From Afipia sp. (GTDB lineage Bacteria; Pseudomonadota; Alphaproteobacteria; Rhizobiales; Xanthobacteraceae): 64,000 nt of DNA. The number at the start of each line of letters is the position of its first letter. The first letter of the stretch is position 1. Of the stretch, positions 5,204-19,560 are shown piece by piece. The stretch spans positions 283,282 through 347,281 of the forward strand of contig JANINQ010000003.1 in NCBI GenBank assembly GCA_024508675.1, read 5' to 3'. The position numbers and the translations under genes are program-made. The notes beneath the pieces were generated by a model. The model worked only from the letters and a program-made list of their open reading frames with translations, was not told where the DNA came from and searched no databases.

Positions 5204-5794
5204 ATGGCTGCGGATTCGTCGTTCAAGATTGTTATCGTCGACGAAAGCCCGATCAGAGCGGCCATCCTCAAGGAGGGGCTGCGCGACGCGGGCTTTACCA
5301 GTGTCGAGCACATCGCCGAGATGCAGAACCTGCTGGCGCGCATTTACCGCATCGATCCGGACGTGATCCTGATCGATCTGGAAAACCCCAGCCGCGACAT
5401 CCTCGAGCAGATGTTCCAGGTCAGCCGTGCCGTCCGTCGGCCGATTGCCATGTTTGTCGACCAGAGCGACGCCGCGTCGATCCAGCAATCGGTCGAGGCG
5501 GGCGTGTCGGCCTATATCGTCGACGGCCTGAAGAAGGAGCGGATCAAGCCGATCCTCGATCTGTGTATTTCGCGCTTCAACGCATTCTCGAAATTGCAGG
5601 ATGAACTGGACCGCACCAAGTCGGCGCTGGAGGATCGCAAGATACTGGATCGCGCCAAGGGGCTTCTGATGAAGGCGAAGGGGCTGACCGAGGAGGAGGC
5701 CTATGTGCTGATCCGGTCGACCGCCATGCGCGAGAAAAAGAAGATCGGCGACATCGCTCAATCGATCATCACCGCGGCGGAGCTGCTGAAATGA
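5204..5794 (+). CDS. nasT: NasT-like ANTAR-domain transcription antiterminator
   Basis: 196 residues in two parts: a receiver-like domain (about 1-125, VDESPIR acidic pair and ILIDLENPS at the phospho-acceptor position) and a C-terminal ANTAR three-helix RNA-binding domain (about 135-196, DRAKGLLMKAKGLTEEEAY). Family knowledge: NasT binds leader RNAs with two hexaloop hairpins and prevents termination; NasS holds it inactive until nitrate or nitrite is present. The stop overlaps the nasS start by 4 bases. A matching leader RNA lies just downstream at 7166-7241, ahead of nrtA, supporting the call. Confidence 0.93.
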   Translation: MAADSSFKIVIVDESPIRAAILKEGLRDAGFTSVEHIAEMQNLLARIYRIDPDVILIDLENPSRDILEQMFQVSRAVRRPIAMFVDQSDAASIQQSVEAGVSAYIVDGLKKERIKPILDLCISRFNAFSKLQDELDRTKSALEDRKILDRAKGLLMKAKGLTEEEAYVLIRSTAMREKKKIGDIAQSIITAAELLK

Positions 5795-6963
5795 CCGGGA
5801 CACCGCTTGCGATTGGATTCATTCCGCTGGTCGATGCATCCGCTCTGATCGTCGCCGTGGACAAGGGCTTCACCGCCGCCGAGGGCCTCGACGTGACGCT
5901 GGTGCGTGAAGTGTCGTGGTCAAATGTCCGCGACAAACTCAATATCGGCCTGTTCGACGCCGCCCATCTGCTTGCGCCCGTCGCCATTGCGTCGACCCTT
6001 GGTCTGTCGCAGGTCAAGGTGCCGATCGTTGCGCCATTCAATCTCGGCCTGAACGGCAACGCCATCACGGTGTCGCCCGCGCTGCATGCGGCGATCATGG
6101 GTGAGGCCGACGGCGATCCGGTCAATCCATTGGTGACGGCGAAGGCGCTGGCGCGGGTGGTCGCGGCACGGCGGAAGGCAGGCGATGATCCGCTGACCTT
6201 TGGTATGACGTTTCCGTTTTCCACGCACAACTATCAGCTCAGGTTCTGGATGGCTGCCGGCGGCGTTGATCCAGATGAAGATGTGCGTCTCGTGGTGCTG
6301 CCGCCGCCTTATATGGTCGACAGTCTCGCCAACGGTCACGTCGATGCGTTCTGCGTCGGCGCGCCGTGGAATTCCGTCGCGGTCGACCTTGGCGTCGGCC
6401 ACATCCTGCACTTCGTGTCGGACATTCTGGAGCGTGCAGCCGAGAAGGTGCTGGCGATCCGTGAGCCATGGGCGCAGAAGAACCCGGAGGTTTTGACCCG
6501 ACTTATCCGGGCCCACGGCAAGGCCGCGGATTTCATCGAAAATCCGGGCAACAGGGACGAGGTGAGCCGCATCCTCGGCGCGCCGGAACGCATCGGTGTC
6601 GATCCCGAAGTCATCCGGCGGACCCTGGATGGCCGTCTGAAAATCTCCCCCGACGGCACGTTCCGCGAGAGCGGGCGCTATCTGCTGGTCGGCCGCGAGG
6701 GAGCTGCCCGGCCTGACCCGGTGCAGGCGGCGTGGCTATATGCCCAGATGGTCCGCTGGGGGCAGGCGGCCTACTCGTCCGAGGCGCTGGAGACCGCCAA
6801 AAAGGTCTTCAGGTCCGATCTTTACGACGCAGCACTCGGCTCATCAGTGCCGCCTGCACATGCTGTAAAGGATGGCGTAGGAGCATTCGACGGCGCGCCG
6901 TTCGACCCGAACGATATCGCCGGCCACCTTGCGTCGGTGACCATCAAGCACCGGCCGGCGTAG
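5791..6963 (+). CDS. nasS: NasS-like cytoplasmic nitrate/nitrite sensor (NrtA-type solute-binding fold)
   Basis: 390 residues of the NrtA/CmpA periplasmic-binding fold, starting directly at the mature fold (IGFIPLVDASALIVAVDKGF) with no signal peptide. That distinguishes the sensor NasS from the transport receptor NrtA, which is encoded next and does have a Tat signal. NasS binds NasT without nitrate and releases it when the ligand is bound. It shares WSNVRDKL and the FGMTFPFSTHNYQLRFWMAAGG region with NrtA-type proteins. The 4-base overlap with nasT indicates coupled translation and near-stoichiometric synthesis. Confidence 0.92.
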   Translation: MTGTPLAIGFIPLVDASALIVAVDKGFTAAEGLDVTLVREVSWSNVRDKLNIGLFDAAHLLAPVAIASTLGLSQVKVPIVAPFNLGLNGNAITVSPALHAAIMGEADGDPVNPLVTAKALARVVAARRKAGDDPLTFGMTFPFSTHNYQLRFWMAAGGVDPDEDVRLVVLPPPYMVDSLANGHVDAFCVGAPWNSVAVDLGVGHILHFVSDILERAAEKVLAIREPWAQKNPEVLTRLIRAHGKAADFIENPGNRDEVSRILGAPERIGVDPEVIRRTLDGRLKISPDGTFRESGRYLLVGREGAARPDPVQAAWLYAQMVRWGQAAYSSEALETAKKVFRSDLYDAALGSSVPPAHAVKDGVGAFDGAPFDPNDIAGHLASVTIKHRPA

Positions 6964-7034
6964 CGGCGATTCTTCGTTCAATCCTATTTGCCTATTTATT
7001 GTGCGCCGCGCAAAAAGCGGGCATTTGCCAATGG

Positions 7035-7058
7035 GGCAGGCCGCAAAGGTGGCCTGCC
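7035..7058. promoter_or_regulatory. Perfect 8-bp inverted repeat after nasS
   Basis: GGCAGGCC-N8-GGCCTGCC is a perfect dyad about 75 bases after the nasS stop and about 60 bases before the sigma-54-like promoter. There is no T run, so an intrinsic terminator is unlikely. It may be an operator for a nitrogen regulator or a stabilising 3' hairpin of nasTS mRNA. Confidence 0.45.
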
Positions 7059-7118
7059 TGATCTCAAGGCATCTCCATAAATCCCTGAAAAACCTGAATT
7101 TGCTGCGCCGCACGCGGC

Positions 7119-7134
7119 TGGCACGATCCTTGAA
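7119..7134 (+). promoter_or_regulatory. Sigma-54-like promoter for the nrt/nas operon
   Basis: TGGCACG-ATCC-TTGAA matches the -24 block of the RpoN consensus (TGGCACG-N4-TTGCA) exactly, with correct spacing. It differs at the C of the -12 GC. Transcription from it would begin near 7145, immediately before the leader hairpins. The -12 mismatch is the main reason for caution. Confidence 0.45.
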
Positions 7135-7145
7135 TGGATACTCGC

Positions 7146-7200
7146 AGGCCGGGACGAAGGCCTACGGCTCCACCGATGGGCCACGCAGCAACGCCGCTGT
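7146..7200 (+). ncRNA. NasT-binding (ANTAR-type) leader RNA with two hexaloop hairpins
   Basis: Hairpin P1 spans 7166-7182: GGCTCC / GGGCC with one bulged T closes the hexaloop ACCGAT. Hairpin P2 spans 7185-7200: GCAGC / GCTGT closes the hexaloop AACGCC. Both loops have A at position 1 and G at position 4, the two conserved positions of ANTAR target RNAs, and they are separated by two bases. A further small hairpin AGGCC-N8-GGCCT precedes them (7146-7163). The 3' half of P2 overlaps the 5' arm of the terminator at 7193-7241, so the two structures are mutually exclusive. Confidence 0.85.
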
Positions 7201-7241
7201 CTCGAGGAGCACGCCTTCGTGCGCTTCGAGCGCGGCTTTTT
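7193..7241 (+). terminator. Regulated intrinsic terminator in the nrtA leader
   Basis: Three paired blocks stack into one long stem: GCCGC (7193-7197) with GCGGC (7232-7236), CTCGA (7201-7205) with TCGAG (7226-7230), and GCACG (7209-7213) with CGTGC (7218-7222). A CCTT loop closes it and TTTTT (7237-7241) follows. It lies 72 bases before the nrtA start. Formation of P2 removes its 5' arm, giving an antitermination switch. Confidence 0.87.
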
Positions 7242-7312
7242 GTTTGGCGGGTGGGGTGCAGGCGAGTGAACGGCAACAGGACAACGGCAACCGGACAAGG
7301 ACACGAGGCACA

Positions 7313-8641
7313 ATGACCAGGATTACGAAGGGCAAGGCAGGAGTGGCGACGGACGGCAAGATGAGCCGCCGCGCATTGCTCAAGGCTGGCGCGGGCACCG
7401 CTGCGCTGCTGGCTGCGGCGCGGCTGAACTTTCCCGGCGGCGCATTCGCACAGACTGCCGGACCTGAAGTGACCAAGGCGATCCTCGGCTATATCGCGCT
7501 GATGGATGCGTCGCCGCTGGTGATCGCCAAGGAAAAGGGCATCTTCGCCAAGCACGGCGTGGGCGATGTCGAAGTCAACAAGCAGGCCTCGTGGGGCGCG
7601 ACTCGCGACAACCTCGTACTTGGCGGCGAAAAGAACGGCATCGATGGCGCGCACATCCTGACGCCGATGCCGTACCTGATCTCTGCCGGCAAGGTGACGC
7701 AGAACAACGTGCCGACGCCGATGTATATCCTCGCGCGCCTCAACCTCGATGCGCAGGCGATCTCCGTTTCCAACGAATACAAGGATCTGAAAGTCACGGC
7801 GAATGCGTCGGCGCTGAAGGAAGCCTTCGCCAAGAAGAAGGCCGAAGGCAAGGAAGTGAAGGTTGCGATGACCTTCCCCGGCGGCACGCATGATCTGTGG
7901 ATTCGCTACTGGCTTGCAGCCGGCGGCATCGACCCCGACAAGGATGTTTCGACAATCGTTGTTCCGCCGCCGCAGATGGTCGCGAACATGAAGGTCGGCA
8001 ACATGGACGCGTTCTGCGTCGGCGAGCCTTGGGGCGAACAGCTCGTCAACCAGGGCATCGGCTACACCGCATGCTCCACCGGCGAAATCTGGTCGAAGCA
8101 TCCGGAAAAGGCGCTCGGCATCCGCGCCGAATATGCCGACAAGTATCCCAAGGCGACACAGGCCATCCTGATGGCGGTGATGGAAGCGCAGCAGTGGTGC
8201 GACAAGCCCGAGAACCGCGCCGAGATGTCCGAGATCGTCGGCAAGCGGCAGTGGTTCAACGTGCCGGTCGCCGACATCATCGGCCGCGCCAATGGCGACA
8301 TCAACTACGGCAACGGACGCCTCGAGAAGGGCACGCCGCAGTTCATGAAGTTCTGGCGCGATCAGGCATCGTATCCGTTCAAGAGCCATGACGCCTGGTT
8401 CGTTACCGAAGACATCCGCTGGGGCAAGTTTGAGCCGACAACGGACGTCAAGGCACTCGTCGACAAGGTCAACCGCGAGGACATCTGGAAGTCGGCGGCG
8501 AAGGCGCTCGGTGTTGCTGCAGCCGACATTCCGGCAAGCACGTCGCGCGGCAAGGAGACCTTCTTCGACGGCAAGGTGTTCGATCCGGAAAATCCGTCCG
8601 CGTATCTGAAGAGTCTGTCGATCAAGCGTATTGAAGCCTGA
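7313..8641 (+). CDS. nrtA: Nitrate ABC transporter, periplasmic nitrate-binding protein (Tat-exported)
   Basis: The track ORF starts at 7001 inside the leader. The supported start is ATG 7313, preceded by ACACGAGGCACA, giving 442 residues. MSRRALLKAGAGTAALLAAA followed by AFAQ is a twin-arginine signal with an Ala-x-Ala cleavage site, as in other NrtA proteins. The mature part has the NrtA/CmpA/SsuA-like binding fold (YIALMDASPLVIAKEKGIFAK, WGATRDNLVLGG). It captures nitrate, and probably nitrite, in the periplasm for NrtBC. It is the first gene of the operon controlled by the NasT leader. An internal ATG at 7361 would also retain the RR motif. Confidence 0.94.
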   Translation: MTRITKGKAGVATDGKMSRRALLKAGAGTAALLAAARLNFPGGAFAQTAGPEVTKAILGYIALMDASPLVIAKEKGIFAKHGVGDVEVNKQASWGATRDNLVLGGEKNGIDGAHILTPMPYLISAGKVTQNNVPTPMYILARLNLDAQAISVSNEYKDLKVTANASALKEAFAKKKAEGKEVKVAMTFPGGTHDLWIRYWLAAGGIDPDKDVSTIVVPPPQMVANMKVGNMDAFCVGEPWGEQLVNQGIGYTACSTGEIWSKHPEKALGIRAEYADKYPKATQAILMAVMEAQQWCDKPENRAEMSEIVGKRQWFNVPVADIIGRANGDINYGNGRLEKGTPQFMKFWRDQASYPFKSHDAWFVTEDIRWGKFEPTTDVKALVDKVNREDIWKSAAKALGVAAADIPASTSRGKETFFDGKVFDPENPSAYLKSLSIKRIEA

Positions 8642-8700
8642 TGCATGGCGGGCCGCCCCGTGCAGCGGCGGCCCGTATCCAACTCAACCGAGGCACTCTC

Positions 8701-9606
8701 ATGAACATGCCACTCGCCAAGACAACCACCAGCGCGCTTGCGGCGCCGTCGCCGGCGTCGCCCGCTGCGGTGGTATCGCTGCCGAAGTCGTCGCGCAGCT
8801 TTGTGTCAGATACGCTTCTTCCCAATTTGCGGGCGCTTGCGGTGCGCGTCATTCCGCCGATCATCATGGTCGCGCTGATCTTCGCCGTCTGGCAGATCCT
8901 CTGCATGAAGCCCGGCGCGACGTTGCCGTCGCCGTCGCGGATTTGGGCCGACGCGAAAGACCTGATCGTCGATCCGTTCTTTGTCACCGGTCCGCAGGAC
9001 ATCGGCCTCGGCTGGCGCGTGTTGACCTCGCTGCAGCGCGTTGCTGTCGGCTTCGGCCTTGCAAGCGTTGTCGGCATCGTGGTCGGCGCGATCATCGGCC
9101 AGTCGGTCTGGGCGATGCGGGGCCTCGATCCGATCTTCCAGGTGATGCGCACGGTGCCGCCGCTGGCCTGGCTGCCGATCTCGCTGGCCGCGTTCCGCGA
9201 CAGCAACCCGTCGGCGATCTTCGTGATTTTTATCACCTCGATCTGGCCGATCATCATCAACACCGCGGTCGGCATCCGCAACATTCCGCAGGACTACCGC
9301 AACGTCGCTGCCGTGGTCCGGCTCAATCCGCTGGAGTTTTTCTGGAAGATCATGATCCCGTCGGCGGCGCCGTACATCTTCACGGGCCTGCGCATCGGCA
9401 TCGGCCTGTCATGGCTCGCCATCGTCGCAGCAGAAATGCTCACCGGCGGCGTCGGCATCGGCTTCTTCATCTGGGATGCGTGGAATTCGTCCCGGCTGTC
9501 CGACATTTTCGTGGCGCTCGCCTACATCGGCATCGTCGGTTTCGTGCTCGATCGCATCGTGGCCTTCATCGGCAACATCGCAACGCGCGGCGCGCAGGCG
9601 AACTAA
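8701..9606 (+). CDS. nrtB: Nitrate ABC transporter permease
   Basis: The track start (8641) overlaps the nrtA stop. ATG 8701, after AACCGAGGCACTC, is the better start (301 residues). It is a binding-protein-dependent transport permease with about six membrane spans and a cytoplasmic EAA-type loop (VRLNPLEFFWKIMIPSAAP) that contacts the ATPase. A Pro/Ala/Ser-rich N-terminal tail precedes the first span, as is common in NrtB. Together with NrtA and NrtC it imports nitrate across the inner membrane. Confidence 0.93.
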   Translation: MNMPLAKTTTSALAAPSPASPAAVVSLPKSSRSFVSDTLLPNLRALAVRVIPPIIMVALIFAVWQILCMKPGATLPSPSRIWADAKDLIVDPFFVTGPQDIGLGWRVLTSLQRVAVGFGLASVVGIVVGAIIGQSVWAMRGLDPIFQVMRTVPPLAWLPISLAAFRDSNPSAIFVIFITSIWPIIINTAVGIRNIPQDYRNVAAVVRLNPLEFFWKIMIPSAAPYIFTGLRIGIGLSWLAIVAAEMLTGGVGIGFFIWDAWNSSRLSDIFVALAYIGIVGFVLDRIVAFIGNIATRGAQAN

Positions 9607-9618
9607 GGGAGACACATA

Positions 9619-10410
9619 ATGGCTTATCTCAAGCTCGATCACGTCGATAAGGTCTTCACCCGCGGTTCGACCCAGAGCGAGGTGCTGAAGGACATCAACC
9701 TTACGGTGGAGAAGGGCGATTACGTCTCCATCATTGGCCACTCCGGCTGCGGCAAGTCCACGCTGCTCAACATCGTGGCTGGCCTGACCGACGCGACCCA
9801 GGGCGGTGTGCTGCTCGAAGGCCGCGAGGTGAATTCGCCGGGGCCGGATCGCGCGGTCGTGTTCCAGAACCATAGCCTGCTGCCGTGGCTCACCGTCTAC
9901 GACAACGTCAGGCTCGGCGTCGACAAGGTGTTCGGATCGACCAAGAGCCGCGCCGAGCGCGACGAATGGGTGCTGCACAATCTCAACCTCGTGCAGATGA
10001 CCCATGCCAAGGACAAGCGCCCGTCGGAAATCTCCGGCGGCATGAAGCAGCGCGTCGGCATCGCCCGCGCGCTGGCGATGGAGCCGAAGGTGCTGCTGCT
10101 CGACGAGCCGTTTGGCGCACTCGACGCGCTGACCCGCGCGCATCTGCAGGACTCGGTGATGGCCCTGCATCAGAAGCTCAACAATACGGTGATGATGATC
10201 ACCCACGACGTCGACGAGGCTGTGCTGCTCTCCAATCGCATCGTGATGATGACCAACGGCCCGAGTGCGCGGATCGGCGAAGTGCTTGAGGTTCCGCTGC
10301 CGCATCCGCGCAAGCGCCTCGAACTGGCGTCCAACCCGATCTACCTCAAGTGCCGCCAGCGCGTGCTCGAATTCCTCTACGAGCGGCATCGTTTTGTGGA
10401 GGCAGCATAA
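9619..10410 (+). CDS. nrtC: Nitrate ABC transporter ATP-binding protein (single domain, NrtD-type)
   Basis: A 263-residue ABC ATPase with Walker A GHSGCGKST, signature ISGGMKQRVGIARAL and Walker B VLLLDEPFGALD. It lacks the C-terminal NrtA-like domain of cyanobacterial NrtC, so it is structurally NrtD-like; the name nrtC follows alphaproteobacterial usage. GGGAGACACATA precedes the ATG, and only 12 bases separate it from nrtB. It powers nitrate uptake by the NrtAB(C) complex. Confidence 0.93.
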   Translation: MAYLKLDHVDKVFTRGSTQSEVLKDINLTVEKGDYVSIIGHSGCGKSTLLNIVAGLTDATQGGVLLEGREVNSPGPDRAVVFQNHSLLPWLTVYDNVRLGVDKVFGSTKSRAERDEWVLHNLNLVQMTHAKDKRPSEISGGMKQRVGIARALAMEPKVLLLDEPFGALDALTRAHLQDSVMALHQKLNNTVMMITHDVDEAVLLSNRIVMMTNGPSARIGEVLEVPLPHPRKRLELASNPIYLKCRQRVLEFLYERHRFVEAA

Positions 10411-10440
10411 GGCCAACTTTGCAGCGAAGGAGCAGGCAGG

Positions 10441-10866
10441 ATGACTCCCACCCAGGTTTCACTCGTTCAGGACAGTTTTGCGAAGGTCGTTCCGATCGCC
10501 GATCAGGCAGCCGTGATTTTCTACGACCGCCTTTTTGAGATCGCGCCGCAGGTCAAGCCGTTGTTCAAGGGCGACATGGCCAAGCAGCGCCGTGCCCTGA
10601 TGGGGACGCTCGGTGTGGTTGTCAATGGATTGTCGAACCTGCCGACGGTTCTTCCGGCGGCGAGCGCGTTGGCCAAGAAGCATGTCGGCTATGGAGTTGA
10701 AGCCTCGCACTACTCAGCGGTCGGCGCCGCTCTGCTCTGGACGCTGGAGAAGGGCCTCGGCGAAGCGTGGACTCCCGAAGTCGCCAGCGCCTGGACGGAT
10801 GCCTACGGCACGCTTTCAAACTTCATGATCGGTGAAGCCTACGGTCAGCAGGCGGCGGCGGAATAG
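10441..10866 (+). CDS. Single-domain haemoglobin (flavohaemoglobin-type globin) of the nitrate operon
   Basis: 141 residues: only the globin domain of the flavohaemoglobin family, with no reductase domain. By alignment to Hmp-type globins the B10 Tyr is residue 28 (IFYDRLF), the E7 Gln residue 49 and the proximal F8 His residue 81 (KKHVGYGV). Family knowledge: the equivalent Bjgb of Bradyrhizobium sits in its nitrate assimilation cluster and detoxifies NO produced during nitrate assimilation. The FAD-dependent oxidoreductase encoded next could supply electrons. AAGGAGCAGGCAGG lies just upstream of the ATG. Confidence 0.92.
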   Translation: MTPTQVSLVQDSFAKVVPIADQAAVIFYDRLFEIAPQVKPLFKGDMAKQRRALMGTLGVVVNGLSNLPTVLPAASALAKKHVGYGVEASHYSAVGAALLWTLEKGLGEAWTPEVASAWTDAYGTLSNFMIGEAYGQQAAAE

Positions 10867-10876
10867 GGACTGTAAC

Positions 10877-12091
10877 GTGAGCGAACCTCTCGTCATCATT
10901 GGCAATGGAATGGCCGCCGCTCGCTTCGTCGATGAGATGGCGAAGCGCGCGCTCGGCCGCTATGCGATTGCCGTGATCGGTGACGAACCACGGCTTGCCT
11001 ATAACCGCGTGCTGTTGTCATCCGTGCTGGCGGGCGAGGCAACCTCGGAAGAGATCGAACTGAAGCCGTCGGCCTGGTGGCGCGACCGCGGTGTAACGCT
11101 GACCTATGGCTGCGCGGCAAACTCCATCGATCTGGGCGAACGCACCATCCATCTCGCCAATGGCGGCGCTGTGCCATTCTCGAAGGTTGTGATCGCCACC
11201 GGATCGTCTGCGATCCGGCTGAACGTGCCGGGCGCGGATCTGCCGGGTGTCCACACCTTCCGCGACAGCCGCGACGTCGACATGCTGCTCAAGCTGGCAC
11301 GCGAGAAAGCGCGCGTTGTCGTGGTCGGCGGCGGATTGCTGGGTCTGGAGGCAGCTTACGGCCTCGCCAAGGCCGGTTCGAAAGTCACGCTGTTGCATCT
11401 GATGGACCGGCTGATGGAGCGGCAGCTCGATGCACCGGCGGCGGCGCTGCTGAAGCGGCTGGTGGAAGCAAAGGGCATCGAGGTTCTGCTCGGTGCGAAC
11501 ACCAAGCAGATTGCCGGTGAGGGCGTCGTACAGGCTGTTGAACTCTCGGACGGTCGGGTGATTGCCGCCGAAGCTGTGGTCTTTGCTGCAGGCATTCGTC
11601 CGAATATCGCGCTGGCGAAAGATGCGGGCGTGCCGGTCAATCGCGGCATTGTGGTCGATGACCAGTTGCGGACCGGCCATGGTGATGTGTTCGCGCTAGG
11701 CGAATGCGCCGAGCATCGTGGCACCTGTTACGGGCTGGTCGAACCGGCCTACGAGCAGGCGCGTGTGCTGGCGGATCATCTCGCGGGCCGCGACGCGCTC
11801 TACAGCGGCAGCGTCGTTTCGACAAATCTCAAGGTTTCCGGCGTCAGCGTTTTTTCTGCTGGCGATTTCCTCGGCGAGTCCGGCGCCGACACGCTTGTGT
11901 TCAACGATGAACGGCGTGGCACGTACAAGAAGCTTGTGGTGGCCGACGGTCGCCTCAAGGGAGCGGTCCTGGTCGGCGATACGCAGGATGCGCTCTGGTA
12001 CCTTGAACTGATCAGGACAACGGCGTCCATCGAAGCGATCCGCGGCGACATGATGTTTGGCCGCGCCCTCGCACAACCGAAGGCCGCATGA
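10877..12091 (+). CDS. FAD/NAD(P)H-dependent oxidoreductase (NirB N-terminal-like, Flp/NasB type)
   Basis: The ORF opens at 10832 inside the globin gene. The likely start is GTG 10877 (VSEPLVIIGNGMAAARF), giving 404 residues. It has two Rossmann motifs: GNGMAAARF near the N-terminus for FAD and VVGGGLLGLEAAYGLAKAG around residue 148 for NAD(P)H. It aligns with the flavin half of NirB but lacks the BFD [2Fe-2S], sirohaem and Rieske parts. Likely role: electron transfer from NAD(P)H to NasA, NirA or the adjacent globin, as proposed for Flp in Bradyrhizobium. Ten bases after the globin stop and 3 bases before nirA. Confidence 0.88.
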   Translation: MSEPLVIIGNGMAAARFVDEMAKRALGRYAIAVIGDEPRLAYNRVLLSSVLAGEATSEEIELKPSAWWRDRGVTLTYGCAANSIDLGERTIHLANGGAVPFSKVVIATGSSAIRLNVPGADLPGVHTFRDSRDVDMLLKLAREKARVVVVGGGLLGLEAAYGLAKAGSKVTLLHLMDRLMERQLDAPAAALLKRLVEAKGIEVLLGANTKQIAGEGVVQAVELSDGRVIAAEAVVFAAGIRPNIALAKDAGVPVNRGIVVDDQLRTGHGDVFALGECAEHRGTCYGLVEPAYEQARVLADHLAGRDALYSGSVVSTNLKVSGVSVFSAGDFLGESGADTLVFNDERRGTYKKLVVADGRLKGAVLVGDTQDALWYLELIRTTASIEAIRGDMMFGRALAQPKAA

Positions 12092-12094
12092 GAG

Positions 12095-13848
<1,754 letters not shown>

Positions 13849-13849
<1 letters not shown>

Positions 13850-15468
13850 TGAACCAGATGTCTCCTCCAGCCCAGCTTCAGATCATCCCGGACACCGCGC
13901 CGTTCTCGCAGGAACAGCGCTCGTGGCTGAACGGATTCTTTGCGGGTCTTGTCTCGCTCGATAACGCGGTCACGCCGCTCTCGCCGGAGCAGGGCGAAGC
14001 CGTGATGAAGGGTGCCGCCGGCGATGGCGACGACGGCGAAGCGCCGTGGCATGACCAGACCATGCCGATTGCCGAGCGCATGAAGCTGGCGGAAGGCCGC
14101 CCGATCCGCCGCCGGATGATGGCGGCGATGGCGCAGCAGGACTGCGGCCAGTGCGGCTACAACTGCAATGACTATTCCGAGGTGATTGCCAACAAGAGCG
14201 AGGCGCGGCTGAACCTTTGCGTTCCGGGCGGCAAGGAAACCGCGCGGATGCTCAAGTCCCTTTACGAAGAACTCGAGAAGGCGCCCGCGTCGGTGTCTGC
14301 TCCGGTAGTCGCCGCTGCGACAGTCGCGCCGGTTGCTGCCGCTCCGGCCGGAGAGCCCGGCCGGTCGCGCGACAACCCCGTGATGGCGTCTTTTCTGTCG
14401 CGGCGCCCGGTCAACAAGCCCGGCTCGGAAAAGGAAACCTGGCATATCGAGTTCGATCTGGCGCAGGCAGGTCTCGATTATGTCGTCGGCGATTCCTTCG
14501 GTGTGTTCGCCTCCAACGATCTCGGTCTCGTCGACCAGATCATCGCGATGCTCGGCGCGTCGCATATGACGGAGGTGAATGGCAAGCCGCTTCGCGAAGT
14601 GCTGCTGAAGGATGTATCGCTGTCGCCCGCACCTGACACGCTGTTCGAACTGATTTCGTTCGTCACCGGCGGCGTGCAGCGCGAGAAGGCGCGGGCGCTG
14701 GCCTCCGGCGACGATCCGGACGGCGATGCTACGAATCTTGACGTGCTGGCAGCGCTGCAGAAATTTGCCGGCGTGCGCCCACATCCGGAAGCCTTTATCG
14801 AAGCGCTTGAGCCGCTGCAGCCGCGTCTCTATTCGATCTCGTCGTCGCACAATGCAACGCCGGGCCGCCTGTCGCTGACGGTCGATGCGGTGCGTTATGT
14901 GATCGGCAAGCGCAAGCGCCTCGGGCTCGCGTCCACGTTTCTCGCGGAGCGGATCAATCCGGGCGACAGGCTCGGCGTCTATGTGCAGAAGGCGCACGGC
15001 TTCGGCCTGCCGCAGGACCCGAACACACCGATCATCATGATTGGCCCGGGCACCGGCATCGCCCCGTTCCGTGCGTTTCTGCATGATCGCCAGGCAACGA
15101 AAGCGCCGGGCCGCAACTGGCTGTTCTTTGGCCATCAGCGCAGCGAATACGACTTCTTCTATTCGGATGAACTGAATGCGATGAAGGCGTCCGGTCTGCT
15201 GACGCGGCTGTCGCTGGCATGGTCGCGCGACGGCGCCGAAAAGTTCTACGTGCAGGACCGCATGCGCGAAGTCGGCCGCGAGTTGTGGAACTGGCTGGCG
15301 GACGGCGCGCATGTCTATGTCTGCGGCGATGCCAAGCGGATGGCGAAGGATGTCGAGCGCGCGCTGGTCGACATCACCGCGCAGTTCGGCGCGCGATCGA
15401 CCGATGAAGCCATCGCGTTTGTGGCGGACCTGAAGAAGAAGGGCCGCTACCAGCAGGATGTTTACTGA
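13849..15468 (+). CDS. CysJ-like FAD reductase with an N-terminal [4Fe-4S] domain and no flavodoxin domain
   Basis: The track starts at GTG 13846; ATG 13849 (539 residues) overlaps the nirA stop and is preferred. Order of parts: FSQEQRSWLNGFFAGL helix; a four-cysteine domain C99-x2-C102-x3-C106-x17-C124 (DCGQCGYNCNDY ... LCVPGG), resembling the PF04060 Fe-S domain; an Ala/Pro-rich linker (about 140-180); then CysJ-type FAD-binding (RLYSISSS) and NAD(P)-binding (GPGTGIAPFRAF) domains to the C-terminal YQQDVY. The FMN/flavodoxin domain of CysJ is absent, so electrons would pass FAD to Fe-S to partner. It is the likely NADPH-dependent electron donor of NirA. Confidence 0.88.
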
Positions 15469-15651
15469 TGGCAGGCAGCGCCAAATCGCCGGTTCCACCG
15501 GAGACAGTTCGTTCCTCATCGGCCTTTGAAGGAGGAATTTCCTCTCTCCGGAAGAGCCAGGGTGCAAGTTTATCGTCTTTTTCCGGTCTGTCTTGTAAGT
15601 GGCTGATAAAGCAACTCAATATCCCGTCACGTGATCGATTGGAGATCGGCG

Positions 15652-15792
15652 ATGCGCGATATTGTGTCAGAAGCTCAGGCTCAGGCGTCTTCTGCCCAGA
15701 CGGAAGATCGCATGCACATGCTCGCGGTCTATGGCGCGTTCGTGCTGATCGCCACCATCGTGTTCGGCACGCTGTCCTATCATCCGTTTTAA
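15652..15792 (+). CDS. Small 46-residue single-span membrane protein in the nas operon
   Basis: Below the track cut-off. ATG 15652 follows TTGGAGATCGGCG, a good ribosome binding site. The product begins MRDIVSEAQAQASSAQTEDR, then a hydrophobic helix (LAVYGAFVLIATIVFGTL), then SYHPF and a stop. A soluble N-terminus of about 20 residues and one membrane span are clear. Function unknown. It lies between the flavoprotein and nasA on the same strand, so it may anchor or regulate the reductase complex. No homologue is named here. Confidence 0.62.
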   Translation: MRDIVSEAQAQASSAQTEDRMHMLAVYGAFVLIATIVFGTLSYHPF

Positions 15793-15826
15793 GAGATTTT
15801 CAGTCTGGCTTTGGTCGGCTCCTTGC

Positions 15827-15914
15827 GTCATTGCGAGGAGCGATAGCGACGAAGCAATCCACTCTTTTGCGTGTTAGCGTTCCGGTTGGATTGCTTCGCT
15901 TCGCTCGCAATGAC
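15827..15914. repeat. Palindromic intergenic repeat, family A copy 2
   Basis: It has the same arms as 3548-3621 (GTCATTGCGAGGAGCG ... GACGAAGCAATCCA / TGGATTGCTTCGC ... CTCGCAATGAC), with a longer centre. It lies inside the nas operon, between the small membrane protein and nasA, and ends 29 bases before the nasA start. Confidence 0.85.
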
Positions 15915-15943
15915 GGAGTGGAGTTTCGCATGCGGAGTGCCGC

Positions 15944-18649
15944 ATGACGAACCCTGATCCATCACTTGCTCCCGTCAAGACCACCTGTCCTTATTGCGGC
16001 GTAGGCTGCGGCGTTGTCGCGACGCCGGACGGCAAGGGCGGCGCGGCCATCGCGGGCGATCCGGACCATCCCGCCAATTTCGGCCGGTTGTGCTCCAAGG
16101 GCTCGGCGCTTGGCGAGACGCTGGGGCTGCACGAACGCCTGCTGCATCCGATGATCCGGTGCTCCAAGGGCAAGTTCGAACAGGTGGCGTGGACGGATGC
16201 GCTGGATCACGTCGCACACAGACTGCAGCACATCATCGCCAAACACGGTCCGGGTTCGGTCGCGTTCTATCTGTCGGGTCAGTTGCTGACCGAGGACTAT
16301 TACGTCGCCAACAAGCTGATGAAAGGATTCATCGGCACGGCGAACGTCGATACCAACTCGCGGCTCTGCATGTCGTCGTCGGTCGCGGGGCATCGCCGCG
16401 CCTTCGGCGCAGACACCGTGCCGGGATGTTATGAAGACCTTGATCAGGCGGATCTGCTGGTGCTGGTCGGATCGAACGCCGCCTGGTGTCATCCGATCCT
16501 GTTCCAGCGCATGATCGCCAACAAGCAGAAGCGCGGCGCGCGCATCGTCGTGATCGACCCGCGGCAGACCGAAACCTCGGGCGATGCCGACCTGTTTCTC
16601 GGTCTCAAGCCCGGCACCGACACGGCGCTGTTCAGCGGTCTGTTGACCTATCTTGCCGACAATGGCGCGCTGGATCGTCCCTACATCGACGAACATACGG
16701 CGGGTTTCGAAGAAGGGCTTGCGAAAGCGCGCGCCATCGCAGGCAGCGTCACGGCGACCGCGCTGGCGACCGGCCTTGCAGAAGGAGATGTTGCGGCGTT
16801 CTTCCAGATGTTCGCCAAGACGCAGCGCGTGGTGACGCTCTATTCGCAGGGCGTCAACCAGTCGGCGCAGGGCACCGACAAGGTCAACGCGATCATCAAC
16901 TGTCATCTCGCGACCGGGCGCATCGGCAAGCCGGGCGCTTCGCCGTTCTCGCTGACCGGCCAGCCGAATGCGATGGGCGGCCGCGAAGTCGGCGGCCTCG
17001 CCAATCAGCTCGCTGCCCATATGGGCTTCACGCCGCCGGACATCGACCGCGTGCGCCGGTTCTGGAAGGCGCCGCGCATCGCCACCCACGAAGGTCTCAA
17101 GGCTGTGCAGATGTTCCAGGCGATCGGGCGCGGCGAGATCAAGGCGCTGTGGGTGATGGGCACCAATCCGGCGGTGTCGCTGCCGAACGCGGATGCCGTT
17201 CGCGCTGCGATGAAGAAGCTCGACCTGCTGGTGATCTCGGAGAACGTGAAGTCCAACGACAGCATCAATTCCGGTGCGCATGTGCTGCTGCCCGCTCACG
17301 CATGGGGCGAGAAGTCCGGCACCGTCACCAACTCCGAGCGGCGGATTTCGCGCCAGCGCGGATTTTTGCCGCCGCCCGGCGAGGCGAAGGCGGACTGGTG
17401 GATCATGAGCGAGGTGGCGAAGCGCCTCGGCTACAGTGCGGCATTCGCCTACAAGTCCGCCGCCGATATTTTCCGCGAGCATGCCGAACTCTCGGCATTC
17501 GAGAATGGCGGCAGCCGTGACTTCGACATCGGTGCGATGGCGTCCGTGGCGGATGACGAATTCGATACGATGCCGCCGTTCATGTGGCCGATGCCGAAAG
17601 ACGCGGCTGACCCGCTGCCGCGTTTCTTTGCGGAGGGCGGATACTACACATCCGACCGCAAGGGGCATTTCATCGCGCCGGACATTCCGATGCTACGGGG
17701 CGCTACCTCGGAAGCGCGGCCGCTGCGCCTGAACACCGGGCGCATCCGCGACCAGTGGCACACCATGACACGCACCGGGCTCAGCCCGCGTCTCGGTCAG
17801 CACCTGCCTGAGCCTTATGTGGAGATTCATCCGGCCGACGCCATGCAGGCCGATATTATCGACGGCGGCTACGCGCGTCTGGCAACCGATCTCGGCCAGT
17901 GTGTTCTGAAAGTCGTCGTTAGTGAGCGTCAGCAGCGCGGCATGCTGTTTGCGCCGATCCACTGGAGCGAGGAGAATTCCTCCTCCGCGCGGGTCGGCGG
18001 ACTGGTTGCGCCGTTCACCGATCCGTTCTCGGGTCAGCCGGAAAACAAGGCGACACCGGTTGCCATCGAAGCCGTCGCGTTCGCGCAGCGCGGCTTTGTG
18101 CTGTCGCGCAAGGCAATGTCATTCCCGGACGGCGTGTGGTGGTCGCGCGTGGCGGTAACCGGGGGATATGGCTATCTGCTTGCCAGCAATCTGGAGATGG
18201 CGAACTGGAAAACGCAGCTCTTGCCGCAAGGCGAGGCGGGTCATGTTGCCGAATACGAAGACACGGCGCATGGCGTTTATCGCGGAGCGCAGTTCGAGGA
18301 CGACCGGCTCGAAGCCGTGCTGTTTGTCTGCTCCGAGGACAATCCGCCCAACTGGGATGCGGTCAAGGCTGCGTTTGCAACGGAGACGATCAGCGACGAC
18401 CAGAGACGGCTTCTGCTGTCAGGCAAATCTGCCGATGGCGTGGCGGGCGACGGTCCTGTTGTCTGCGCCTGCTTCGGTGTCGGACGCAATACCATCTGCG
18501 GTGCAATCGCGGAGGGCGTACGCACGGCTGCCGAGATCGGGGCGAAGCTGAAAGCCGGCACCAATTGCGGTTCTTGCATTCCTGAACTGAAGCGGCTGAT
18601 TGCGCAGACGGAAGTCGCGCAGCCGATGGAGGCTAGTGCCGCGAGTTAG
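15944..18649 (+). CDS. nasA: Assimilatory nitrate reductase, Mo-bis-MGD catalytic subunit with C-terminal BFD [2Fe-2S] domain
   Basis: 901 residues. The N-terminal [4Fe-4S] cysteines are C15, C18, C22 and C50 (CPYCGVGC ... RLCSKG). A molybdopterin oxidoreductase core follows (YLSGQLLTEDYYVANKLMKG; GVNQSAQGTDKVNAI). The C-terminal molybdopterin dinucleotide-binding domain (LNTGRIRDQWHTMTRTG) is intact. The extreme C-terminus adds a BFD-type [2Fe-2S] domain (C841, C843, C875, C878), as in Klebsiella NasA. It reduces nitrate to nitrite in the cytoplasm. It is the last gene of the operon; repeat copy A2 separates it from upstream genes, so a local promoter is possible. Confidence 0.95.
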   Translation: MTNPDPSLAPVKTTCPYCGVGCGVVATPDGKGGAAIAGDPDHPANFGRLCSKGSALGETLGLHERLLHPMIRCSKGKFEQVAWTDALDHVAHRLQHIIAKHGPGSVAFYLSGQLLTEDYYVANKLMKGFIGTANVDTNSRLCMSSSVAGHRRAFGADTVPGCYEDLDQADLLVLVGSNAAWCHPILFQRMIANKQKRGARIVVIDPRQTETSGDADLFLGLKPGTDTALFSGLLTYLADNGALDRPYIDEHTAGFEEGLAKARAIAGSVTATALATGLAEGDVAAFFQMFAKTQRVVTLYSQGVNQSAQGTDKVNAIINCHLATGRIGKPGASPFSLTGQPNAMGGREVGGLANQLAAHMGFTPPDIDRVRRFWKAPRIATHEGLKAVQMFQAIGRGEIKALWVMGTNPAVSLPNADAVRAAMKKLDLLVISENVKSNDSINSGAHVLLPAHAWGEKSGTVTNSERRISRQRGFLPPPGEAKADWWIMSEVAKRLGYSAAFAYKSAADIFREHAELSAFENGGSRDFDIGAMASVADDEFDTMPPFMWPMPKDAADPLPRFFAEGGYYTSDRKGHFIAPDIPMLRGATSEARPLRLNTGRIRDQWHTMTRTGLSPRLGQHLPEPYVEIHPADAMQADIIDGGYARLATDLGQCVLKVVVSERQQRGMLFAPIHWSEENSSSARVGGLVAPFTDPFSGQPENKATPVAIEAVAFAQRGFVLSRKAMSFPDGVWWSRVAVTGGYGYLLASNLEMANWKTQLLPQGEAGHVAEYEDTAHGVYRGAQFEDDRLEAVLFVCSEDNPPNWDAVKAAFATETISDDQRRLLLSGKSADGVAGDGPVVCACFGVGRNTICGAIAEGVRTAAEIGAKLKAGTNCGSCIPELKRLIAQTEVAQPMEASAAS

Positions 18650-18669
18650 TCTACGATCAATCATGGGAT

Positions 18670-18791
18670 GTCGTCCCGGCGAAAGCCGGGACCCATAACC
18701 ACTGAACTTTCGATTCGTGCGATGCGCATCGCAAGCATCCCTGCGAAACTTATCGACAGGGATGATGGGTCCCGGCTTTCGCCGGGACGAC
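18670..18791. repeat. Palindromic intergenic repeat, family B copy 2
   Basis: GTCGTCCCGGCGAAAGCCGGGACCCAT is mirrored by ATGGGTCCCGGCTTTCGCCGGGACGAC, matching the copy at 3642-3757 except for compensated G/A changes in both hairpin loops. It lies between the convergent ends of nasA and pxpA. Confidence 0.85.
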
Positions 18792-18795
18792 CAGG

Positions 18796-19560
18796 TCATC
18801 GTCTGCTGAACGGCGCAACCGCGATGCCGCTGCGCTCCAGTTCCGAGCGCACCTTGCGTGCGATTTCCACCGCGCCGGGCGTATCGCCGTGAATGCAGAC
18901 GGTGTCGATCTTCACCGGAATGACCTTGCCCGAGGCAGCGGTGATGGCATTGTCATGAACCATGCGGACCACGCGCTGCGCGATCTGGTCGGCATCGTGC
19001 AGCACCGAACCCGGCTTGCTGCGCGCCATCAGTTGCGCGTCATCTTCATAGGCGCGGTCGGCGAAGACCTCGTAAATCAGTTTCAGTCCGGCGGCTTCGC
19101 CGGCGCGGACCAGCGCGGTGTTTGGCAGCACGACGAAATAGAGGTTCGGATCGACGGCCTTGATAGCCGCGGCAATGGCGCGCGCCGTCATGTCGTCCAC
19201 GCATCCGACGTTCGACAATGCGCCGTGCGCCTTGACATGAGTGACCTTGTATCCCGCCAGCGCGGCGACCGCCTGCAATGCTCCGATCTGGTAGGCCACC
19301 ATGGTTTCGACTTCGGACGATTTCAATCCGGGCACCGGTCGCCGCCCGAATCCATGAAGATCGCGATAGCCGGGATGCGCGCCGATGCTGACGCCGCGTT
19401 CCTTCGCGAGCTTGGCGGTCTTGAGCATGATGTCGGAATCGCCGGCATGAAAGCCGCAGGCCACATTGACGCTGCTGGCGAGGCCGAGCATCGCGTCGTC
19501 GTTGCCCATATCCCATGCGCCAAAGCCTTCGCCGAGATCGCTGTTGAGATCGATGGTCAT
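18796..19560 (-). CDS. pxpA: 5-oxoprolinase subunit A (LamB/YcsF family)
   Basis: 254 residues, the family's usual length. It starts [19 protein letters not shown] and has the conserved [12 protein letters not shown] and [16 protein letters not shown] blocks of LamB/YcsF proteins. With PxpB and PxpC it forms the ATP-dependent bacterial 5-oxoprolinase, converting 5-oxoproline (pyroglutamate) to glutamate. It is the last gene of a three-gene minus-strand operon in the order pxpB-pxpC-pxpA, 15 bases after pxpC. Confidence 0.93.

Follow-up and report, generated by a model that had tools for sequence, protein, structure and literature searches.

A predicted NasT-dependent transcription attenuator between nasS and a nitrate-uptake operon in Afipia

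The leader separating nasS from nrtA in the window (the whole 64,000-nucleotide stretch of Afipia sp. DNA analyzed here) is predicted with high confidence to be a transcription attenuator that responds to the ANTAR protein NasT and precedes a nitrate-uptake operon. It is very probably switched on by NasT that nitrate has released from its partner. This reading, put forward in the original prediction, is supported by the adjoining nasT and nasS genes, covariation in hairpin P1, the overlap of hairpin P2 with the terminator in relatives, the presence of a single such RNA and a single ANTAR protein, and the association of the element with nrtA or nirA. The anatomy of the leader, its conservation, covariation and genomic co-occurrence are direct observations of the present analysis. 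The mechanism is already known: it has been established in Paracoccus and has also been proposed to operate in Bradyrhizobium, and nothing here goes beyond it.

The leader had originally been described as two adjacent hairpins with hexaloops ACCGAT and AACGCC, spaced by two bases, with a GCCGC common to the second hairpin and to a long terminator ending in TTTTT. This description is accurate almost to the base (Table 1). The spacing and the P2 loop, with A1 and G4, are read directly from the sequence, as is the sharing of GCCGC, which comprises G4, C5 and C6 of the P2 loop and the two bases that follow, at the start of the 3′ arm. The same strand pairs with GCGGC at 7232–7236, the 3′ base of the terminator, which is followed directly by the U tract. 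The hexaloop of P1 holds only if U7169 is bulged; without the bulge, an unbroken five-base-pair stem (GGCUC/GGGCC) closes the heptaloop CACCGAU. The hexaloop reading is favored because a genome of the same genus (L103) carries ACCGAU on an unbroken stem, GGUCC-ACCGAU-GGACC. Both loops are closed by a C-G pair, C7171-G7178 in P1 (in the bulged register) and C7189-G7196 in P2. The leader therefore shows the features of the ANTAR dual-hairpin class: two adjacent hairpins of at least 3 bp each, A1/G4 hexaloops (in P1 with one bulged U), C-G loop closure, a short linker, a terminator whose overlap excludes P2 and, in the genome, an ANTAR protein and a NasS-type sensor. NasT and NasS are indeed encoded upstream, but the nasS stop codon at 6963 lies 0.18 kb from the leader, not 0.3 kb as first stated.

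Table 1. Positions of the leader elements and neighboring genes within the window
Feature	Position	Strand	Description
nasT	5204-5794	+	196 aa; receiver-like and C-terminal ANTAR domains; Pfam ANTAR 6e-19, Response_reg 2e-9
nasS, nitrate/nitrite sensor	5791-6963	+	NMT1_2/NrtA-like binding protein; Pfam NMT1_2 2e-70; starts MTGTPLAIGFIPLVD
Sigma-54-type -24/-12 element	7119-7134	+	TGGCACGATCCTTGAA; puts +1 at about 7145
P0 hairpin	7146-7163	+	AGGCC-GGGACGAA-GGCCU; predicted RNA 5′ end; kept in 15/17 aligned leaders
P1, first ANTAR-type hairpin	7166-7182	+	GGCUCC-ACCGAU-GGGCC; loop A1, G4 with U7169 bulged
P1-P2 linker	7183-7184	+	AC, 2 nt
P2, second ANTAR-type hairpin	7185-7200	+	GCAGC-AACGCC-GCUGU; loop A1, G4, C-G closed
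GCCGC switch strand	7193-7197	+	P2 loop/3′ arm or terminator 5′ base
Intrinsic terminator	7193-7241	+	U5 tract 7237-7241; terminator scan match 7217-7235 plus tail
nrtA, nitrate-binding protein	7313-8641	+	Twin-arginine-like signal SRRALLKAG; first gene of predicted controlled operon
nrtB, nrtC/D, globin, NirB-like FAD oxidoreductase, nirA, flavoprotein	8641-15468	+	Closely spaced nitrate/nitrite assimilation genes
Assimilatory nitrate reductase (NasC/NasA-like)	15944-18649	+	

NasT is a predicted RNA-binding antiterminator and the only ANTAR protein encoded in the genome, and NasS has no evident signal peptide. A gap of 0.48 kb separates nasA from the genes that precede it; nasA may belong to the same operon and transcript. 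Between the flavoprotein gene and nasA lies a 46-aa ORF (15652–15792, MRDIVSEAQ...IVFGTLSYHPF) with one likely membrane helix and no match in Pfam; a similar ORF (MRELSAEARLH...GTLSVHPF) is found 3′ of nasS in many Bradyrhizobium loci. The inverted repeat GTCATTGCGAGGAGC...GCTCGCAATGAC (15825–15917), also upstream of nasA, resembles short palindromic intergenic repeats.

Two further elements of the leader region, a sigma-54-type promoter and P0, were absent from the original prediction. The element TGGCACGATCCTTGAA fits the sigma-54 -24/-12 layout except that the GC of the -12 element is GA. In most relatives P2 is preceded by the pattern TGGCA[CT]-N5-TTG[AT]; every match has TGGCA[CT], and the -12 element reads either TTGA or TTGT and in no case the usual TTGC. 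Both rpoN and ntrC are encoded in the genome, and the promoter is probably activated by NtrC under nitrogen limitation. The predicted start of transcription coincides with the left edge of P0, whose conserved loop has the consensus N-A/G-GACGAA; the plainest guess is that P0 is a protective 5′ hairpin.

When conformers of the 96-nt RNA were forced, the terminator form had an energy of -45.9 kcal/mol and the P2 form -47.2 kcal/mol. A gap of 1.3 kcal/mol indicates a balanced switch that a protein could tip. In folds of growing transcripts P0, P1 and P2 form first, and the minimum-energy fold of the 96-nt RNA lacks the full terminator, the 3′ base of which is paired with the 5′ arm of P0, so termination would depend on kinetics. 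We infer the following course of events, in which the release of NasT from NasS, its binding to the RNA and the readthrough are taken over from published homologues. The sigma-54 promoter, probably activated by NtrC in nitrogen limitation, would start the RNA at about 7145, and P0, P1 and P2 would fold as RNA polymerase advances. As long as nitrate is lacking, NasT would be held by NasS, P2 would open, GCCGC would pair with the emerging GCGGC, and transcription would stop at 7237–7241. With nitrate or nitrite, NasT would be released from NasS and two ANTAR domains would grip the loops of P1 and P2; with P2 held closed, the base of the terminator beside the U tract would be blocked, allowing readthrough into nrtABC and the assimilation genes.

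To what extent such an element arises by chance was assessed in shuffled sequence. Two C-G-closed A1/G4 hexaloops 14–26 nt apart occur 0.42 times per shuffled 64-kb strand, and 46 of 20,000 shuffled versions of the 349-nt intergenic region contained the same pair. As such pairs are not rare, paired hexaloops by themselves are weak evidence. The hexaloop pair together with a P2-overlapping terminator was found in none of 60 shuffled 64-kb strands (3.8 Mb) and in none of the 20,000 intergenic shuffles; the real window contains this full combination once. No relevant family of Rfam 15 matched in the leader region at gathering or relaxed thresholds. A covariance search for the two-hairpin element, suggested at the outset as a check, returned the leader as the sole credible site in the source genome (model R1, E = 3.3e-9; next best E = 1.5). 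A pattern for P2 alone gave six matches in the genome, no excess over the reversed control, and a convincing adjacent P1 was seen at none of the other five.

Conservation was followed in 80 nasS-anchored loci, mostly from Afipia, Bradyrhizobium and Tardiphaga; the closest NasS relatives, from Afipia, share 87–90% identity, which points to an Afipia-like source for the window. The leader is kept in 16 Afipia-type relatives, including one (L011) that lacks P0. Because the loop lengths differ, RNAalifold on a sequence-only alignment missed P1, and the P1 arms were aligned by hand. At the third stem pair of P1, four leaders have C-G, five have G-C and six have U-A; the fourth varies between C-G, U-A and U-G. 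The covariation test for P1 gave 8 double-change cells against 3.4 when shuffled, with low values in the slid controls; from these alignments the covariation of the third and fourth stem pairs is judged to be real. P2 hardly varies, its loop being AANGCC in 17/17 close leaders, and therefore provides conservation and no covariation. The five-base-pair foot of the terminator forms in the folds of all 17, with changes on both sides of the middle stem. The loop of P1 spans 4 to 7 nt among these 17 leaders and often has C or G at position 1, G at position 4 being the constant feature of its hexaloops. Loops that deviate from A1 in the Afipia relatives include CACGAC, CGCGAU and GCUGAC, and two relatives have loops of 4 or 5 nt. 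P1 may thus be weaker than the consensus suggests, because A1 is not kept in all Afipia relatives. One of the loci (L015), in a record titled Streptomyces sp. AcH 505, is a Bradyrhizobium/Afipia-type nasS-nrtA locus with 79% NasS identity, probably a contaminating contig.

A wider sample of the family was obtained by scanning 101 genomes with model R1, from which 29 leaders were extracted; some of these genomes share a species or genus with the nasS loci, so that independence between the two samples is incomplete. A1 and G4 of P2 were found in 29/29, as read by a script that demanded GCA..GCCGC at P2 (present in all 29), and A1 and G4 of P1 in at least 25. The 3′ base of the terminator and the U tract were matched in at least 28 of the 29. 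Of the 31 genomes in which the RNA was detected (E <= 1e-3), 30 encode an ANTAR protein, compared with 36 of the 70 others (Fisher p = 3e-6); the lone RNA-bearing genome without one (G048) has a completeness of 79%, and a nasT-like fragment is visible at the edge of its locus (L119). Of the 80 nasS loci, 55 carry the motif and all of these have nrtA or nirA next; the 25 that lack it have neither gene next. The element therefore goes with its target genes and does not belong to nasS. In one Afipia MAG (L011:4310-4430) the leader lies directly before nirA, not nrtA, which would fit a loss or relocation of nrtABC.

This distribution bears on another explanation, that the terminator is a plain nasS terminator, the paired hexaloops are incidental and nrtA has its own promoter further downstream. 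The terminator does sit in the nasS-nrtA gap, and the frequency of chance hexaloop pairs noted above is in line with such a view. However, the leader is preceded by the conserved promoter-type element, a search of 6900–19000 gave no sigma-70-like site, and P1 and P2 are conserved, with covariation, in a motif that accompanies nrtA or nirA and not nasS, making this explanation very improbable. Slightly less so, yet still improbable, is that the leader is an attenuator in which the main competition comes from P0: the 5′ arm of P0, GGCCG, would capture the 3′ arm of the terminator, and NasT would act mainly through P0 and P1, not by locking P2. This is suggested by the minimum-energy fold, in which 7147–7151 are paired with the 3′ base of the terminator, and by the conservation of P0 among the aligned leaders. 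Against it, pairing with the 3′ base of the terminator is not restored in relatives with altered P0 arms (L013, L015, L019 and L028), the switch is present in L011 without any P0, and the published mechanism places the terminator overlap at P2. The relatives do not support P0 as a competitor that covaries with the terminator.

Least probable of all is that the leader answers another RNA-binding factor, or a small molecule directly as a riboswitch. The lack of an Rfam match argues against it, and A1/G4 hexaloops are the published ANTAR signature, with the sole ANTAR protein encoded next to them. Attenuation by NasT through P1 and P2 is therefore preferred.

The Bradyrhizobium-type leaders, about 40 in number, have nirA downstream and a P2 of the form CAGCAACGA[A/G/C]GCUG. 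Position 3 of the P2 loop is always C in this type and variable in the terminator type; positions 5–6 change from CC in the terminator type to A[A/G/C]. No U5 tract was found between P2 and the start codon in the 30 Bradyrhizobium-type nirA leaders examined (e.g., L024:1840, L036:4385 and L050:4369). A nearly invariant GCAGGAGCUUCGU just before the nirA start codon could base-pair with the loop and 3′ arm of P2; the conserved ribosome-site segment GGAGCUUCGU is complementary to the same part of P2 (ACGA[A/G]GC). Perhaps, though this is rather unlikely, one P1-P2 element has two outputs within the family, a terminator before nrtA and ribosome-site pairing before Bradyrhizobium nirA, where NasT would be a translational activator. 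The general possibility of such control was raised earlier for ANTAR RNAs that lack a terminator (PMC3369931). It stays a suggestion here because strong pairing of P2 with the Shine-Dalgarno region appeared on folding in a minority of the leaders, about 8/30.

The output end of the switch thus seems changed in Bradyrhizobium, a genus in which NasT influences nitrous oxide reduction. In Afipia, the predicted NasT switch is resolved to the base, and one ANTAR protein with one RNA target makes it well suited to clean tests on a single target. The roughly 45 related leaders could seed an RNA family model, as none of the Rfam 15 models matched here.

The closest parallel is the NasS-NasT system of Paracoccus denitrificans, in which nitrate frees NasT from NasS and NasT binds the nasA leader (PMC3795266); mutants of the leader hairpins have been published (PMC5424462). 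As in Afipia, nasT-nasS lie directly upstream of a gap of ~200 bp that contains the hairpins (PMC3795266; PMC5424462). The predicted operon described here begins with nrtABC and not with nasA, and the P2/terminator overlap and the sigma-54-type promoter are resolved from the sequence. Bradyrhizobium diazoefficiens, a related bacterium with the same NasST, uses NasT at nosR and has predicted NasT hairpins at nirA (bll4571), downstream of nasST (PMC6759348); the P2-overlapping U-tract terminator of Afipia is missing from the Bradyrhizobium nirA leaders. The dual-hairpin motif and the P2/terminator overlap mechanism have been published for NasR and EutV (PMC3369931; PMC7496416; PMC8934654). Analogous to the present leader, the nasF leader of Klebsiella oxytoca responds to nitrate and has two A1/G4 hexaloop hairpins, the second overlapping an intrinsic terminator (PMC7496416). 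NasR, however, is a one-component NIT-ANTAR protein, whereas the sensor NasS and the RNA binder NasT are separate here. The eut leaders of Enterococcus faecalis, the targets of EutV, likewise have a dual hexaloop antiterminator with a short linker (PMC3369931; PMC8934654), but there the signal is ethanolamine and dimerization is driven by histidine-kinase phosphorylation.
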